Below are positions 10,662-63,370 of a stretch of DNA of 64,000 bases, piece after piece. Location: positions 86,359,217-86,423,216 of the forward strand of contig NC_092804.1 of NCBI RefSeq assembly GCF_040954645.1, given 5' to 3'. Under the pieces are notes generated by a model. That model worked only from the letters and a program-made list of their open reading frames with translations, made no database searches and was not told where the DNA came from. Position 1 is the stretch's first letter. Every line of letters starts with the position of its first letter. Position numbers and translations under genes: made by a program. This DNA comes from Diabrotica undecimpunctata (lineage: Eukaryota; Arthropoda; Insecta; Coleoptera; Chrysomelidae).

Positions 10662-12105
10662 GGAATTTGGATTTCGGTCAAAATACTTGGGAATTCCAAG
10701 GTTGGCCAAATCCAAATTTCTAATTGATTCGATGCAGGGAAATTCCACTTTCACTACGTAAAACAAAGGATTTGTTTTACATAAAAGCAGGTAGATTTTC
10801 TCTCATCGATCAGTCGAGCTTGCCTCTTCTACTGTAGACCTAGTCGGTGCTATTATTGTCCCAACTAAGTTATTGTTTTATTTCTGATTTTCTGTATACC
10901 TTTTTATTTTAGCATTATTGTATATTCAGACCTTTTCAGGTTAGGATATTACATTGATCTATATTTGTTCATGTACTGATTGTTTATTTTTCTTGTATTT
11001 TGTGTCTAAGTTGTTCTTCCGTAAGTTAAGAACACTTAGAAATATTTATCTGCTTTTTCTATTTTATATTTTGATTTGTACATTGTCTAAGTAGTTCTTT
11101 CCGGTAAGTCAAAGAACTCTTAGAAATATTTTCATAATCATTGTTGCATTATTATTTCCGATATTTTATCTAAGATATTTTCTTTCTTAAGTTAAGAAAA
11201 TACTTAATACATTTGTTTCTTTCATTTTTTATTTTATGCTTTCTTCCGTAAGTCAAGAAACACTTAGCAATATTTTCACATCTTTTCTATATTTGATTTT
11301 TCTTATTTTCTATTATAAGTCGTTTCTTCCGTAAGTCAAGAAACACTTATAAATATTTGTGCATTTATTTTACTATATTTAATTCTCTTGTTTATTTTCT
11401 GTTCTAAGTTGTTTCTTCCGTAAGTCAAGAAACACTTACTTGAACTCGAAACACTTAAAGACATATTTCTATAATCTGTTTCATTTTTGCATTTCTCGTT
11501 TTATATTTTGAGTATTTTATTTTTCCACTCTAAGTCGTTTCTTCCGTAAGTCAAGAAACACTTAGCAATATTTTCAAATCTTCTCTATATTTGATTTTTC
11601 TTATTTTCTATTATAAGTCGTTTCTTCCGTAAGTCAAGAAACACTTATAAATATTTGTGCATTTATTTTACAATAAATTTAATTCTCTTGTTTATTTTCT
11701 GTTCTAAGTTGTTTCTTCCGTAAGTCAAGAAACACTTAGACATATTTCTATAATCTGTTTCATTTTTGCATTTCTCGTTTTATATTTTAAGTATTTTATT
11801 TTTCCACTCTAAGTCGTTTCTTCCGTAAGTCAAGAAACACTTAGAAATATTTCCATATTTTACTCTCACATTTACATATTTCATTTATCTATATTTCTGT
11901 CCTAAGTTGTTTCTTCCGTAAGTCAAGAAACACTTAGAAACATTTTTTTCTTTGCATTATATTTGTATACCATTTAATTTAATTGTTTACTAAGTTATCC
12001 CTTCCGTAAGTCAAGGAATACTTAGATCATTTTTACCTATCTGTTTTCCATTTTTGCTCTGTTACTTTGTAACTGTTCCTTGGAACCGTTACCTATAACA
12101 GATAT
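10662..12105 (+). repeat. 5' LTR of element B (truncated at its 5' end)
   Basis: It matches 14409 onward of the right LTR. It contains 12 hairpins (see the next entry). The right boundary is uncertain: a TTTGTCA followed by TGGAACTG near 12100-12115 could be the LTR end and a primer-binding site, but an imperfect upstream twin (TGGAACCGTTACCTATAACA, about 12082) makes this tentative. Confidence 0.65.
11006..12025 (+). repeat. Array of 12 hairpins in LTR A of element B
   Basis: Hairpins begin near 11006, 11087, 11170, 11239, 11312, 11404, 11530, 11611, 11704, 11808, 11902 and 11990, about 90 bp apart in T-rich spacers. The consensus is left arm CTAAGTTGTTTCTT, loop CCGTAAGTC and right arm AAGAAACACTTAG, giving a 13 bp stem with one bulged base. 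Variant hairpins change both arms together: AGTTCTTT with AAAGAACT (11087), ATATTTTCTT with AAGAAAATA (11170), TATAAG with CTTATA (11312, 11611). The fourth has lost most of its left arm, and its partner at 14986 is complete. Confidence 0.93.
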
Positions 12106-12171
12106 TTGTCACTGGAACTGTTATTTATAACAGCGGTAGTATTTAACCTTTCTACCAGCGACAAACCAAAG

Positions 12172-13122
12172 ATGGTGAATACCCGATCCAATTCCGGGGA
12201 TAGGAAGAAGCCCGAAGAGCCGGCGATGGGTCCTACAGGCCCAAATGCCCCCTCTCGGCAACATGGCGCCCAACCCACAAAATTCGAATCCACGACCCCA
12301 GGACCGTCCTCAAGCCAGCCTTCCACAGCTGACTTTATCTCTGCCCTAATGCAAGCGATGACGGCCCTATCCACTACGCAAGGCACTACACCCCAGATGC
12401 CTCAACCTGAGCCACCGAAGCCCAGGATTACATATACGAAGCCCCCTCAATTCTCAGGCCGGGACACCGAGAATCCGCTCAGCTTTTCGACAAAAGCTGA
12501 GAATTTCTTAATCAAACATAACGTAGACGAGGACCAATGGATCGACTACCTCATAGACAACTCTCTCCACGGCGATGCGAAGAAATGGGCTCAGAAATTC
12601 TCATACACGGACCTGCCATACACCACATTTCGAGACCGTCTCCTAAGGAGATACAATGACCCTGCCACAATTTCAACCCTGACGTCGAAGCTTCATGGAG
12701 AACATCAACGTAGAGACGAATCCACGGAGGAGTTCATTAACCAGAAATCTGCCTTATTCAGACGTCTCATGCCACATACCCCCGAGGACCAGAGGTGTAT
12801 AACGATAGCGAACTTACTGAGACCCGACATAGCGATCTGCCTGAGAGCGAACATCCCCAGGACCGAGGAAGACCTTCTGACAATCGCCCAGGGCATGGAA
12901 TCTGACATCCGCCGGACCGGCAAACCCCAGCAGCATCAGCAGCAGCAGCAGCAGCTGCAACAACAGCCGTACCGTCCCCCACGTCAGGATAACGCTCCAC
13001 GACACCCTGAGGCGATAGACGAATGGAGGAACCCCAGCGGACAGTACAGGATGCCATCAATGAACCAACCACCACCTCCAACCCCACAGAACCAGGGAAA
13101 CGCCAATCGGGGCGCCAACTGA
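12172..13122 (+). CDS. gag of element B
   Basis: A 316-residue structural polyprotein by position and pattern. The ATG at 12172 is chosen because the frame opens in the leader and this Met begins the repeated coding stub. It starts with a low-complexity proline/serine-rich stretch. A Ty3/gypsy retrotransposon gag domain follows (about residues 90-250) with PPQFSGRDTENPLSFSTKAE and the FRDRLLRRYNDP type helix. The end is glutamine-rich (CAG repeats near 12930-12970) and proline-rich. No zinc knuckle is seen. Protease lies in the -1 frame and overlaps the last codons. Confidence 0.82.
   Translation: MVNTRSNSGDRKKPEEPAMGPTGPNAPSRQHGAQPTKFESTTPGPSSSQPSTADFISALMQAMTALSTTQGTTPQMPQPEPPKPRITYTKPPQFSGRDTENPLSFSTKAENFLIKHNVDEDQWIDYLIDNSLHGDAKKWAQKFSYTDLPYTTFRDRLLRRYNDPATISTLTSKLHGEHQRRDESTEEFINQKSALFRRLMPHTPEDQRCITIANLLRPDIAICLRANIPRTEEDLLTIAQGMESDIRRTGKPQQHQQQQQQLQQQPYRPPRQDNAPRHPEAIDEWRNPSGQYRMPSMNQPPPPTPQNQGNANRGAN
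13095..13101 (+). promoter_or_regulatory. -1 frameshift heptamer, gag/protease of element B
   Basis: G GGA AAC lies in the gag frame, seven codons before the gag stop at 13120-13122. Protease is open in the -1 frame across this site. The heptamer fits X XXY YYZ. The same heptamer occurs at the equivalent place in element D. Confidence 0.7.
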
Positions 13123-13987
13123 ACCCTGTTGTGACGATGGTGCCCCAACTCAATCCTATTCAGGTACAACCCTCGACAGAAGGCCTCCCCCAACTCTATG
13201 GAAGGATCAACGGGCAGCAAGTGAAGATTTTGGTCGACACCGGTGCCTCCGGGAACTTCGTTCACCAGAGGTTGATCCAGAGACGGGACTTGCACCGAGG
13301 ACCAGGACTGGTTCAGCTGGCATGCAGGGCAGCACATCCCGCACCCTAGGGACTGCTGCAGTCAATATGAACATTGACACTCTGGACACGACTGTAAACT
13401 GCATGGTTATGGAGGATTTGAACCACGACGTTGTGTTAGGGATGCCTTGGTTGGAGCAGGAAGAGGCCAATGTAGACATACCCCGAAAATGTCTACACTC
13501 TGGTACTGCCTGCCGAACCACCATCTACTGGGCGACCCCAGCAGAAAGGCAAGCCAAACCACAACAGCTGGAATTCCATCAAACCCCATCCCAACAAGCA
13601 GAGCAGTCAACCCAAGAGGACAATGAAGTATTAGACAACCGTCCACGTCAGCAGACCAATGAAGAAACTGAAACAGCGGACATCAGTACAGGCACACCCG
13701 AAGAAGAAGAAGAAGCCTACGGCGTTCCATTACTAGAGACGATGGAGGACGTCGACGAGGAGGAAGAACCTAGCCTGACAGCAGATGACATGCCAGACGC
13801 CGAATGCCTTCTACTGATAGAGACAATGGAGCACGGCGACGAGGAGGAGGACACCGACCCCATCCTCGACGGTCCGGTCGACGTACCACTCCGAGAGGAA
13901 ATCCGGAGAAGTCACCGGACACACAAGAGAAAGAAACGACTTCGGAGACGCGAGCAGCAAGCTGACCCCTCCGGACAGACGGGATGA
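13102..13987 (+). pseudogene. Aspartic protease plus acidic tail of element B
   Basis: The -1 frame gives a retroviral-type aspartic protease: YGRINGQQVKILVDTGASGNF, then a shift near 13310-13325 into a second frame that carries the rest of the fold and VVLGMPWLEQ. The frame continues to 13987 as a tail of about 170 residues, very acidic (runs of E and D) and ending in a basic RRSHRTHKRKKRLRR stretch. No RT motif follows, where an autonomous element would have RT. The single frameshift within protease means this copy does not make the enzyme in one piece. Confidence 0.72.
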
Positions 13988-14369
13988 AGGAAACACAGCG
14001 CAGCCGACCAAAAAAGATGACCAAGGATAAGGTCCCATTACGACACGTGGAGATATCAAGGTGAATTGAGTAGCCTTATATCTTCACGGCGTCGTAGGAC
14101 CTCCTCAGGGTGAATAAAGTAGCCCTGACGGAAGCAGACGAGCCACCCGGCACACCTGGACCACCTGGGCCTACTGGTTATACAATTATATACAATTAAG
14201 TTCAAATATCTTAAGTACAATATCTTAGTTTTTTTTATCTTAAGTCTTTTACATTATATTCTTTTAGGGTAAAAATTTTATTATTGTATTTTTTTTATTC
14301 TTAAATTGTATTTTTCTATTGTTTTAATAAATTTTCTTAGCACCGTTAGGTCTTTCAGAGGAGGGGGGA
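13988..14369 (+). other. 3' noncoding region and purine tract of element B
   Basis: AT-rich sequence without coding signal. It contains two related short blocks, GGTGAATTGAGTAGCC (14060) and GGTGAATAAAGTAGCC (14110). The run GAGGAGGGGGGA at about 14358-14369 directly precedes the LTR start TGTCCTCCGG and is the likely polypurine tract. Confidence 0.7.
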
Positions 14370-16145
14370 TGTCCTCCGGAGGCGTGACAGCCGTGCCGGA
14401 GGCATCAAGGAATTTGGATATCGGTCAAAATACTTGGGAATTCCAAGGTTGGCCAAATCCAAATTTCTAATTGATTCGATGCAGGGAAATTCCACTTTCG
14501 CTACGTAAAACAAAGGATTTATTTTACATAAAAGCAGGTAGATTTTCTCTCATCGATCAGTCGAGCTTGCCTCTTCTACTGTAGACCTAGTCGGTGCTAT
14601 TATTGTTCCAACTAAGTTATTGTTTTATTTCTGATTTTCTGTATACCTTTTTATTTTAGCATTATTGTATATTCAGACCTTTTCAGGTTAGGATATTACA
14701 TTGATCTATATTTGTTCATGTACTGATTGTTTATTTTTATTGTATTTTGTGTCTAAGTTGTTCTTCCGTAAGTTAAGAACACTTAGAAATATTTATCTGC
14801 TTTTTCTATTTTATATTTTGATTTGTACATTGTCTAAGTAGTTCTTTCCGGTAAGTCAAAGAACTCTTAGAAATATTTTCATAATCATTGTTGCATTATT
14901 ATTTCCGATATTTTATCTAAGATATTTTCTTTCTTAAGTTAAGAAAATACTTAATACATTTGTTTCTTTCATTTTCTATTTTATGCTAAGTTGTTTCTTC
15001 CGTAAGTCAAGAAACACTTAGCAATATTTTCAAATCTTTTCTATATTTGATTTTTCTTATTTTCTATTATAAGTCGTTTCTTCCGTAAGTCAAGAAACAC
15101 TTATAAATATTTGTGCATTTATTTTACAATAAATTTAATTCTCTTGTTTATTTTCTGTTCTAAGTTGTTTCTTCCGTAAGTCAAGAAACACTTAGACATA
15201 TTTCTATAATCTGTTTCATTTTTGCATTTCTCGTTTTATATTTTGAGTATTTTATTTTTCCACTCTAAGTCGTTTCTTCCGTAAGTCAAGAAACACTTAG
15301 AAATATTTCCATATTTTACTCTCACATTTACATATTTCATTTATCTATATTTCTGTCCTAAGTTGTTTCTTCCGTAAGTCAAGAAACACTTATAAATATT
15401 TGTGCATTTATTTTACAATAAATTTAATTCTCTTGTTTATTTTCTGTTCTAAGTTGTTTCTTCCGTAAGTCAAGAAACACTTAGACATATTTCTATAATC
15501 TGTTTCATTTTTGCATTTCTCGTTTTATATTTTAAGTATTTTATTTTTCCACTCTAAGTCGTTTCTTCCGTAAGTCAAGAAACACTTAGAAATATTTCCA
15601 TATTTTACTCTCACATTTACATATTTCATTTATCTATATTTCTGTCCTAAGTTGTTTCTTCCGTAAGTCAAGAAACACTTATAAATATTTGTGCATTTAT
15701 TTTACAATAAATTTAATTCTCTTGTTTATTTTCTGTTCTAAGTTGTTTCTTCCGTAAGTCAAGAAACACTTAGACATATTTCTATAATCTGTTTCATTTT
15801 TGCATTTCTCGTTTTATATTTTAAGTATTTTATTTTTCCACTCTAAGTCGTTTCTTCCGTAAGTCAAGAAACACTTAGAAATATTTCCATATTTTACTCT
15901 CACATTTACATATTTCATTTATCTATATTTCTGTCCTAAGTTGTTTCTTCCGTAAGTCAAGAAACACTTAGAAACATTTTTTTCTTTGCATTATATTTTT
16001 ATACCATTTAATTTAATTGTTTACTAAGTTATCCCTTCCGTAAGTCAAGGAATACTTAGATCATTTTTACCTATCTGTTTTCCATTTTTGCTCTGTTACT
16101 TTGTAACTGTTCCTTGGAACCGTTACCTATAACAGATATTTGTCA
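14370..16145 (+). repeat. 3' LTR of element B
   Basis: It begins TGTCCTCCGGAGGCGTGACA after the purine tract. It is a long LTR of about 1.77 kb and is longer than the left one because its hairpin array is expanded. The right edge is tentative, as for the left LTR. Confidence 0.7.
14753..16059 (+). repeat. Array of 15 hairpins in LTR B of element B
   Basis: Hairpins begin near 14753, 14834, 14917, 14986, 15069, 15160, 15264, 15357, 15449, 15552, 15646, 15738, 15841, 15935 and 16024. The first three and the last correspond one to one with the left array. In the middle a three-hairpin block repeats with a period of about 289 bp (15357, 15646, 15935), which explains the extra hairpins. Most loops keep CCGTAAGTC. 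Confidence 0.93.
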
Positions 16146-16297
16146 CTGGAACTGTTATTTATAACAGCGGTAGTATTTAACCTTTCTACCAGCGACAAAC
16201 CAAAGATGGTGAATACCCGATCCAATTCCGGGGATAGGAAGAAGCCCGAAGAGCCGGCGATGGGTCCTACAGGCCCAAATGCCCCCTCTCGGCAACA
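16146..16297 (+). pseudogene. Leader and gag stub of a second element B copy
   Basis: It repeats 12106-12263, including the gag ATG (at 16206) and about 30 codons, then ends at GGCAACA, after which the sequence is unrelated. Confidence 0.85.
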
Positions 16298-32849: not shown

Positions 32850-33493
32850 TTTGGTCAGGGATAAATATACATCCTGATTTTTGAGAAACTGGAATTTTGG
32901 CTACACTACAAGATAAGGGGTCCAATTTTTGTTTGAAGATTATTTTTAGGTCAGATTTATAGTATGTTATGAGATACTAGAATATGGAGTAGTTAATTGG
33001 GAATTTACGAAATCTAACTTAGCATTAAAATATTTTATGTTATCTAGTCCTAAAAGACCATCGAAACTTCTATGAAAATCAAAAAGATGGAACTTAATCT
33101 TACCTTCCTGATTAAATTCTGAAAAAATGGGGATTTCTGCACAAAAGTCCTTCTTTGTATTGTTCTGAAGCTATTTTCTTGTGGCATTTTAAATTAATTA
33201 CTATTTAACTGGGAATAAGCCACAATTAAAAGTTAAAATACGTTTATTGACGTTTCAATTTCCACTTCGGAAATCTCCGATTTCCGAAGTGGAAATTGAA
33301 ACGTCAATAAACGTATTTTAACTTTTAATTGTGGCTTATTCCCAGTTAAATAGTAATCCTTCTTTGTACTTTGAAATACTGTGGAAACAACAAAGGGTTC
33401 ATAAAAGATATAATTTTTGTAAAAAAGGTTAGCTTTTTCGGGATTTAAAAAGAATTTAGAGGAACCTGGATCTACCAGTAACTGTAGGATCAT
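32850..33493 (-). pseudogene. Protease of the errantivirus relic
   Basis: Minus strand: LVDPGSSKFF near 33465 stands for the catalytic DTG (Thr to Pro), and the second half FDGLLGLDNIKYF is found near 33060-33030. The palindromic element (33160-33356) splits it. The frame joining gag to protease is +1 relative to gag, not the -1 seen elsewhere in the window, so the break is probably a mutation. Confidence 0.75.
33160..33356. mobile_element. Palindromic element, copy 1, with 12 bp target duplication
   Basis: A ~37 bp tail (33160-33196) is followed by two ~75 bp arms that are perfect or nearly perfect reverse complements around a 4-10 bp centre. The 12 bp duplication TCCTTCTTTGTA lies at 33148-33159 and 33357-33368. 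A longer, reverse-oriented copy is at 63096-63370. The 12 bp duplication argues for retrotransposition and not a cut-and-paste MITE. The tail-plus-inverted-repeat shape recalls Penelope-like terminal repeats; that is a guess. Confidence 0.85.
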
Positions 33494-63095: not shown

Positions 63096-63370
63096 TTTTA
63101 ATTAATTTATATTTAAATGGGAATAAGCCACAATTAAAGGTTAAAATACGTTTATTGACGTTTCAATTTCCACTTCGGAAATCGTTCTCAAAATACAAAC
63201 ATTAGTAAATTACACTAATTTTACTAATGTTTGTATTTTGAGAACGATTTCCGAAGTGGAAATTGAAACGTCAAAAACGTATTTTAACCTTTTTTTGTGG
63301 CTTATTCCCATTTAAATATAAATTAATTTAAAATGCCACAAGAAAATAGCTTCATAACGGTTTTAACTTT
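63096..63370. mobile_element. Palindromic element, copy 2
   Basis: Arms of about 115-120 bp (63096-63210 and 63216-63336) are reverse complements with a few indels, around ACAC. The ~36 bp tail (GCCACAAGAAAATAGCTTCA) lies on the right, so the copy is reversed relative to the one at 33160. The arms are longer here because they include AACGTTCTCAAAATAC-type inner sequence that copy 1 lacks. Confidence 0.83.

Follow-up and report, generated by a model that had tools for sequence, protein, structure and literature searches.

The window analysed here, a 64,000-nucleotide stretch of the Diabrotica undecimpunctata genome, contains a Ty3/gypsy-type retrotransposon, element B, with paired LTRs, TG...CA ends and, judged by position, a primer-binding site and a polypurine tract (Table 1). 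We take TGGCGCCCAACC, next to the 5' LTR, to be the primer-binding site, and GAGGGGGGA, next to the 3' LTR, is presumably the polypurine tract. The 5' LTR ends with CGGCAACA, followed by TGGCGCCC; it has this end in common with the 3' LTR, and its BLASTN match to the latter starts at 3' LTR base 40. Both LTRs contain 43% T on the sense strand. The first 92 nt of the gag reading frame lie inside the 5' LTR, and no CCHC pattern (zinc knuckle) was found in the eight sequences checked. A protein search with gag, which reaches only relatives with short exact words in common, gave two Diabrotica proteins (E up to 0.001) out of 570 candidates. No reverse transcriptase (RT) reading frame of at least 150 aa lies between the LTRs of the window copy, while the one full copy read (L047) has a pol with the order RT-RNaseH-integrase. 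Among the best 120 matches listed, those pol relatives whose beetle host is named are 38-46% identical and the best relative 59%. Beetle Ty3/gypsy elements are like this family in their Ty3_capsid gag, RVP remnant and, in the full copy, RT, RNase H and integrase.

Hairpin arrays in the LTRs of element B

The initial annotation had described 27 regularly spaced inverted repeats in the two LTRs, and all of them were recovered, 12 at 11005-12028 and 15 at 14752-16062, with a spacing of 61-126 bp, mostly 83-105. At E<=1 a covariance model (R1), built on 36 family hairpins with the window forms included, gives exactly 27 plus-strand matches in the window, every one of them inside an LTR of element B; the remaining 16 matches are minus-strand readings of hairpins in the same two arrays. 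The loop pattern YTTNCNGTAAGTNAAG with at most one mismatch matches the window 26 times (0.27 expected), 25 of these in the LTRs, and misses the third hairpin of each array. When arms were swapped among six distinct hairpins the total folding energy was worse in all other 719 arrangements, with RNA as well as with DNA parameters. Four hairpins call for a correction: 5_4 has suffered a deletion, 5_6 is damaged in the outer arm, and 3_8 and 3_11 have an outermost-pair mismatch that looks like a product of crossing-over between units. In the last hairpin the C.A mismatch (TATCCC/GGAATA) is the rarer variant, with 11 units against 48 for the paired TATTCC form. The window copy carries an expanded array, the commonest unit number in the family being nine, and in its 3' LTR a 289 bp block is present 3.5 times.

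Table 1. Features of element B and its hairpins in the window (bit scores from covariance model).
Feature	Position	Strand	Remarks
5' LTR	10662..12263	+	12 hairpins; without first ~39 nt of 3' LTR
Hairpin 5_1	11005..11042	+	52.0 bits
Hairpin 5_2	11086..11126	+	41.1 bits
Hairpin 5_3	11169..11210	+	21.0 bits; TTAAGT loop
Hairpin 5_4	11233..11270	+	32.2 bits; deletion-damaged
Hairpin 5_5	11314..11353	+	66.4 bits
Hairpin 5_6	11403..11442	+	56.1 bits; altered outer arm
Hairpin 5_7	11529..11568	+	64.8 bits
Hairpin 5_8	11612..11651	+	66.4 bits
Hairpin 5_9	11703..11742	+	67.9 bits
Hairpin 5_10	11808..11847	+	68.3 bits
Hairpin 5_11	11901..11940	+	68.0 bits
Hairpin 5_12	11989..12028	+	56.4 bits; one C.A mismatch
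gag ORF, 316 aa	12172..13122	+	Pfam Ty3_capsid 1.9e-8; Retrotrans_gag 5e-5, slightly below cut-off
Presumed primer-binding site	12264..12275	+	directly 3' of 5' LTR
ORF with aspartyl-protease remnant (RVP_2)	13064..13987	+	
Presumed polypurine tract	14361..14369	+	directly 5' of 3' LTR
3' LTR	14370..16297	+	TGTCC...CAACA; 15 hairpins; starts directly after GAGGGGGGA
Hairpin 3_1	14752..14789	+	52.0 bits
Hairpin 3_2	14833..14873	+	41.1 bits
Hairpin 3_3	14916..14957	+	21.0 bits; TTAAGT loop
Hairpin 3_4	14985..15024	+	69.2 bits
Hairpin 3_5	15068..15107	+	66.4 bits
Hairpin 3_6	15159..15198	+	67.9 bits
Hairpin 3_7	15264..15303	+	68.3 bits
Hairpin 3_8	15357..15396	+	62.0 bits; mismatched outermost pair
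Hairpin 3_9	15448..15487	+	67.9 bits
Hairpin 3_10	15553..15592	+	68.3 bits
Hairpin 3_11	15646..15685	+	62.0 bits; mismatched outermost pair
Hairpin 3_12	15737..15776	+	67.9 bits
Hairpin 3_13	15842..15881	+	68.3 bits
Hairpin 3_14	15935..15974	+	68.0 bits
Hairpin 3_15	16023..16062	+	56.4 bits; one C.A mismatch

The array in the retrotransposon family

A pattern for one hairpin class, with the arms left free, has 4,066 exact matches in the genome, compared with 0 for the backwards control; the 100 places inspected, which were tallied by eye, were taken from the start of the contig order and not at random. An array of 7-15 units is present in 93 of the 95 LTRs read, the unit number varying across copies through block duplication and loss. 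The 40 best matches include ten LTR pairs, four about 3.5 kb and six about 6 kb apart, and arrays are kept in both element sizes, as well as in a copy with pol; the short (~3.5 kb) copies are presumably without pol. By extrapolation the family probably has about a thousand LTRs in this one beetle genome. The hairpin core has no exact match in viral contigs, and a search of Rfam at E<=0.5 gave two unrelated matches, whose 18.2 bits are far short of the cut-off of 70. The initial annotation knew of no LTR with such an array; among the open-licence papers listed in our literature searches we likewise found none described, beetle Ty3/gypsy elements included.

The counts of LTRs and hairpins come from a set in which units containing N were dropped, as were loci L002 and L004-L008, which are retained as L009-L014. 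Locus L078, which is the same LTR as L048, is left out of the LTR and hairpin counts, of the set of 804 units (763 in hairpins) and of the Fisher test below, whose result is unchanged without it; it is still counted twice in the leader and spacer ATG counts, the wobble test, the tree tests, the alignment of hairpins and spacers and the tabulation of compensated forms, whose rows are forms found in at least two loci. Ten elements contribute both LTRs, which are not independent, and five of these pairs show no difference over 900 nt.

The typical hairpin consists of a 12-14 bp stem and a 9-10 nt loop that almost always contains UAAGU, a constancy that is partly built in through the selection of units by loop pattern, and neighboring hairpins are joined by U-rich linkers. 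In the predicted folds of two full leaders the local hairpins dominate and TAAGT is mostly unpaired. The hairpins change more slowly than the spacers: in five arrays identity between positions is 81-83% for hairpins, 60% for the T-rich spacers and 54-55% for shuffled spacers, and the same difference was found in an alignment of 66 loci, made without the window copies and the loci lacking both anchors and with eight reference hairpins, the last one being missed.

Covariation, strand and the possible function of the fold

Covariation had been read in the initial annotation as selection on the folded form, and this reading is borne out in part. In the gap-free hairpin class, to which the form comparison and the tree tests apply, common forms show six double changes, all Watson-Crick, against two single ones, while rare forms show one double and 66 single changes (Fisher 9.5e-7). 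Of the stem cells 94.3% are paired, where two tree-based nulls with majority root states give 81.8% and 74.7% (0 of 2000 each). These two results and the slower change of the hairpins speak for selection, but independent double changes are few, about 5-6 in this class, and the tree tests are mixed. Neither the count of doubly changed pairs nor that of pair types is above the tree-based nulls, the excess of double cells has P=0.0095 on one tree and 0.11 on the tree built from the flanks alone, and same-branch co-substitution on the unit tree, with arbitrary root states, gives three co-changes where 2.8 are expected (P=0.54). Apart from the paired cells, covariation counts do not rise above the nulls. 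It appears that sequence change has left the hairpins' ability to fold intact, a pattern suggesting that the element has some use for the folded RNA.

Whether the fold is used as RNA or as cruciform DNA had been left open, and the position of the array bears on this choice. It is situated upstream of gag, between gag and the presumed start site, in what would be a leader (R-U5) of about 1 kb, start site and leader both being placed from sequence. In 56 leaders there are 1.68 ATG per leader where 11.3 are expected, CAT not being depleted, and in 32 non-redundant spacers there are six where 23.7 are expected, so that ATG is depleted four- to sevenfold before gag, on the gag strand only. Among other depleted leader triplets, GGG and ACG are lower than ATG and CCC is about equal. 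The wobble test, in which 52 of 815 units were unassigned, counted 23 G.U and 28 A.C single changes, which is no G.U excess and does not separate the strands. RNA is therefore favoured by the strand-specific lack of ATG and not by wobble; an array placed before gag, with ATG depleted on the gag strand only, probably acts as RNA.

The same evidence bears on a reading of the array at the DNA level, as a cluster of sites bound by a host protein, with the TAAGT cores as sites, by which the promoter would be shielded or driven. The closest model is the gypsy insulator, described as a 340 bp stretch of the gypsy 5' untranslated region with 12 Su(Hw) sites, which are short DNA motifs (PMC2374998); the array resembles it in the clustering of similar sites in an AT-rich gypsy-class leader. 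Most units do have TAAGT in the 5' arm and in the loop, with its reversed form in the 3' arm. The array, in contrast to the insulator as described there, lies inside the LTR and runs for about 1 kb, its inverted repeats showing compensated changes. It also speaks against sites on DNA that the common forms alter both arms yet keep pairing, that the arm-to-loop distance varies between hairpin classes and that ATG is lacking on the sense strand only. The Su(Hw) consensus YRYTGCATAYYY (PMC2374998), with at most one mismatch, occurs 19 times in the window, near the 13.75 expected by chance, with one match per LTR and none in the hairpins. We consider this reading unlikely.

It is improbable that the array is a neutral by-product, with unequal crossing-over multiplying a palindromic unit and template switching, in replication or in reverse transcription, matching its arms. 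The changes in unit number by block duplication and loss, and the small number of independent double changes, agree with such an origin. However, template correction should erase the extra nucleotide of the 5' arm, yet exactly one is present in 763 of 788 hairpins, its presence near-constant and its identity varying; moreover, rare variants are almost never double, and the spacers have diverged where the hairpins have not.

Still somewhat less credible to us is an array of U1 snRNP sites, which would guard the 5' LTR against premature polyadenylation or retain the RNA in the nucleus. The GUAAGU loops match what we take to be the 5' end of U1; GTAAGT occurs in 25 of the 27 window loops (11 in the 5' LTR, 14 in the 3' LTR), and AATAAA lies within the array, in one and three copies, respectively. 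Foamy viruses are reported to use U1 snRNP together with RNA structure at the splice donor of the 5' LTR, with different folds at the two LTRs (PMC3694450), and here too the predicted fold may expose U1-complementary nucleotides in the LTR transcript. That account concerns one site, while the array has many, alike in both LTRs, and the third hairpin of each array has no GU, its fold being kept with TTAAGT in the loop. In most loops C occupies the two positions preceding GT, and neither the stem nor the extra nucleotide would be needed for pairing with U1.

Least probable of all is dimer linkage or condensation of genomic RNA, with the self-complementary CUUAAG of the third hairpin (CTTAAG is present in 65 of 66 TTAAG loops) as a kissing site and the other arms forming duplexes between units, as proposed for the XIST A-repeats (PMC10870365), for the six-nucleotide match is rich in A and U, the CCGTAAGTC loops lack self-complementarity and local hairpins are favoured in the leader folds.

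A proposed recognition site in many copies

The explanation that we prefer, with a probability of roughly 45%, is that the array is a cis-acting RNA element of the leader, a recognition site in many copies that would dock Gag or a host RNA-binding protein. The array would be transcribed into the leader of the Diabrotica Ty3/gypsy genomic RNA and read there as RNA, the repeated hairpins being one site in multiple copies; Gag or a host RNA-binding protein would most likely be docked on the genomic RNA, and docking would serve packaging or particle assembly. Such a role would explain why the array is retained in the short, presumably pol-less copies and would suit a Gag without a detected zinc knuckle, and the packaging step rests on these two observations. 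The nearest parallel are the XIST A-repeats, described as eight and a half similar structured repeats with an unpaired nucleotide in the duplex and U-rich linkers less conserved than the repeats, where tight SPEN binding needs several repeats (PMC10870365). The array is like them in its similar structured units, its U-rich and less conserved linkers and its unpaired nucleotide. As far as that account goes they differ in that XIST is a mammalian lncRNA with another repeat sequence and fold, while the array belongs to the LTRs of a repeated retrotransposon family, with no homology shown between the two. In a more particular form, which we hold to be doubtful, a retrotransposon whose Gag lacks a zinc knuckle would have exchanged a single packaging signal for about ten bulged UAAGU hairpins, a multivalent platform similar to the XIST A-repeats in every LTR, whose reader would be Gag or an RNA-binding protein captured from the host.

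LTRs are usually assumed to be regulatory DNA. To our knowledge the choice of RNA by Gag proteins without a zinc knuckle is poorly understood, and we know of few natural multivalent hairpin arrays. The thousand or so LTRs that this family probably has, its two element sizes and its range of 7 to 15 units would provide a natural series on the number of sites needed, and its array a case of selection on RNA structure within an LTR.

Hairpin arrays of element B and its family

The 27 inverted repeats which the initial annotation had reported in the two LTRs of element B, the short Ty3/gypsy-type element of the window, were all matched (12 in the 5' LTR and 15 in the 3' LTR) by a covariance model, built as had been proposed there, from 36 hairpins of the family; no other plus-strand site was found in the 64 kb up to E=1. 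In the commonest form, CTAAGT[T/C]GTTTCTT-CCGTAAGTC-AAGAAACACTTAG, a single extra nucleotide on the 5' arm separates the outer stem (6 bp) from the inner one (7 bp), and the loop has 9 nt. Swapping of arms among six distinct hairpins always lowered total stability, the native combination being rank 1 of 720 with both RNA and DNA energies.

Features of element B and other repeats in the window
Feature	Position	Remarks
253-bp tandem repeat	1-993	3.9 copies, 93% matches; 5' of another gypsy-like gag-pol ORF
Element B	10662-16297	short Ty3/gypsy-type
5' LTR	10662-12263	about 39 nt absent from its start
Palindrome CTTGGGAATTCCAAG	10687-10701	close to LTR start
Third hairpin, 5' array	11169-11210	CTTAAG loop
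Gag ORF	ATG 12172	inside LTR; Ty3_capsid match
Gag start codon + 92 nt, 5' LTR	12172-12263	
Presumed primer-binding site		TGGCGCCC
Second ORF		RVP_2 protease remnant
Purine tract		before 3' LTR
3' LTR	14370-16297	
Third hairpin, 3' array	14916-14957	CTTAAG loop
Frame opened by the ATG at hairpin 4	14983-15021	12 codons
Gag start codon + 92 nt, 3' LTR	16206-16297	
Inverted repeat	33197-33357	arms 79 nt, 100% complementary, 3 nt apart
Inverted repeat	63152-63277	arms 58 nt, 98% complementary, 10 nt apart

Because the start of gag lies inside the LTR, the 3' LTR has a copy of it; yeast Ty1 is similar in having its gag start within the LTR. A protein search with gag gave two entries, both from Diabrotica undecimpunctata (93 and 84% identical). 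No RT ORF was found in element B of the window, and no CCHC pattern in eight sequences spanning gag or the gag-pol junction. Ty1 is likewise without the zinc-knuckle NC of Ty3 (PMC4589538).

In the assembly of 1.74 Gb the array DNA gave 1,095 candidates, of which the best 40 were scored, and a gag query 4,152, of which 150 were scored (79-99% identity). Ten LTR pairs were recognised by spacing among the 40 scored array matches, four at 3.45-3.62 kb and six at 5.91-6.03 kb. One of the latter (L047) has a 908-aa frame with RT, RNase H and integrase, and both its LTRs (L021 and L022) have 10 units, i.e. hairpins. As this full-length copy with pol also has the array, which the short copies retain, element B looks like a pol-less relative of the full element. 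Arrays have 7-15 units in 93 of the 95 LTRs read (94 of 96 loci before L048 and L078, one and the same LTR, were merged), most commonly 9 (44 loci) or 10 (22 loci, both counts from the 96); the exceptions are L053, largely masked, and L051, where a deletion that begins after the first unit and ends after the last has left a single hairpin. The window has a palindrome close to the LTR start; a hairpin with a GGAATTC loop occurs 61 times in 90 loci. Exact matches to the pattern AAGT N8 CCGTAAGTC N7 ACTTA number 4,066 genome-wide, against none for its reversed version. Of 100 listed matches, tallied by hand, 90 have perfectly paired arms, 5 a single T.G wobble and 5 a single non-pair; beside the extra nucleotide, 79 have a G-C pair and 21 an A-T pair, never mixed. 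These 100 form about 26 clusters, from which about a thousand LTRs can be extrapolated genome-wide.

Evidence for and against selection on pairing

For the analysis of stem changes, 501 gap-free units were picked by loop and loose similarity, pairing not being a criterion, and each form was compared with its nearest commoner form. Forms with at least 7 copies show six double changes, all Watson-Crick (two possibly of common origin), and two single ones, while forms with 1-2 copies show 1 double and 66 single (Fisher 9.5e-7; at a threshold of 10 copies 3:1 vs 2:67, 6.3e-4). The contrast is the same with 494 units, after removal of the doubled LTR. Against nulls preserving phylogeny and per-column change counts, 94.3% of cells are paired vs 81.8 +/- 3.7% on a first tree and 74.7 +/- 4.8% on one from flanks alone (0 of 2000 each), and each of the 5 branches on which a double change occurred retains pairing. 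Among 36 distinct rows the paired cells make up 94.6% (0 of 500 shuffles as high), falling to at most 53% when the partner column is slid by 1-3, and the covariation score is 0.189 vs 0.083 shuffled (0 of 500). Across 66 aligned arrays the variation in hairpins is half that in spacers, the sequence between them (0.0156 vs 0.0326, a contrast matched by 10 of 639 circular shifts), and between positions of five arrays identity is 81-83% in hairpins and 60% in spacers, close to the 54-55% of shuffled ones.

The earlier claim that covariation implies selection on the fold is partly supported: by the paired-cell excess and the common/rare contrast, but not by how many pairs show double changes (at least as many in 100 of 500 shuffles; tree P 0.53 and 0.79), the number of pair types (36 of 500; 0.08 and 0.39) or a first same-branch co-change test, which was negative; double cells are mixed, P=0.0095 on one tree and 0.11 on the flanks-only tree. 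Selection on pairing is thus supported, but by few independent events. Template switching in the palindrome, as a source of double changes, would make the arms perfect, and we take as evidence against it that exactly one extra 5'-arm nucleotide, T, C or A depending on the form, persists in 763 of 788 hairpins (772 of 797 if the doubled LTR is counted), selected by a finder needing at least 11 pairs; 763 of the 804 units that the loop pattern by itself picks out coincide with such hairpins, several of the remainder being chance matches beyond the arrays.

Form and possible role of the array

The array sits between an initiator-like TCAGTC (10810), which we take to be the start site, and the ATG of gag. 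Counted over 56 leaders, ATG numbers 1.68 per leader vs 11.3 expected, and its reverse complement CAT 21.9 vs 18.7; in 32 non-redundant spacers the values are 6 vs 23.7 and 54 vs 45.8, and in the window ATG is 2 vs 11.9 (0 of 500 shuffles as low). ATG is the third lowest of 64 triplets in leaders, below it being GGG (0.04 vs 0.5) and ACG (0.5 vs 5.0), with CCC about equal. Scanning ribosomes would impose such a shortage on a sense-strand leader, and the shortage also suggests that the leader is not always spliced out. An ATG at hairpin 4 represents 47 of the 94 upstream ATGs remaining in the 56 leaders, and in the window it starts a 12-codon frame that stops at that hairpin's own TAG. Of the two proposed folded forms, RNA or DNA cruciform, the sense-only shortage speaks for RNA, but single changes favour neither strand (G.U 23 vs A.C 28, about equal). 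Folding of two complete leaders retained the local hairpins, and TAAGT is predicted to be unpaired at 0.85-0.97; only the final unit of either leader, the one with the C.A mismatch, is lower (0.71 and 0.56).

In agreement with the initial annotation, no LTR with such an array was found in searches of the open literature. The XIST A-repeat (PMC10870365), the gypsy insulator (PMC2374998) and the foamy virus U1 mechanism (PMC3694450) come nearest, by likeness of layout rather than by demonstrated homology; Su(Hw) sites of the gypsy insulator occur only at chance level in the window. What makes U1 binding attractive is the GUAAGU present in 25 of the 27 loops of the window, but the third hairpin retains its stem with a TTAAGT loop. 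Dimerisation through that third hairpin, as a kissing site, is possible because its loop is self-complementary, CTTAAG being present in 65 of 66 TTAAG loops of the family. The repeated hairpins are set apart by variable U-rich linkers, and their extra nucleotide and loop core stay constant, an arrangement that resembles a single recognition site present in many copies. Because of this arrangement, the CCHC result and the keeping of the array in short copies, our preferred reading is that Gag or a host protein would dock on the array in genomic RNA.
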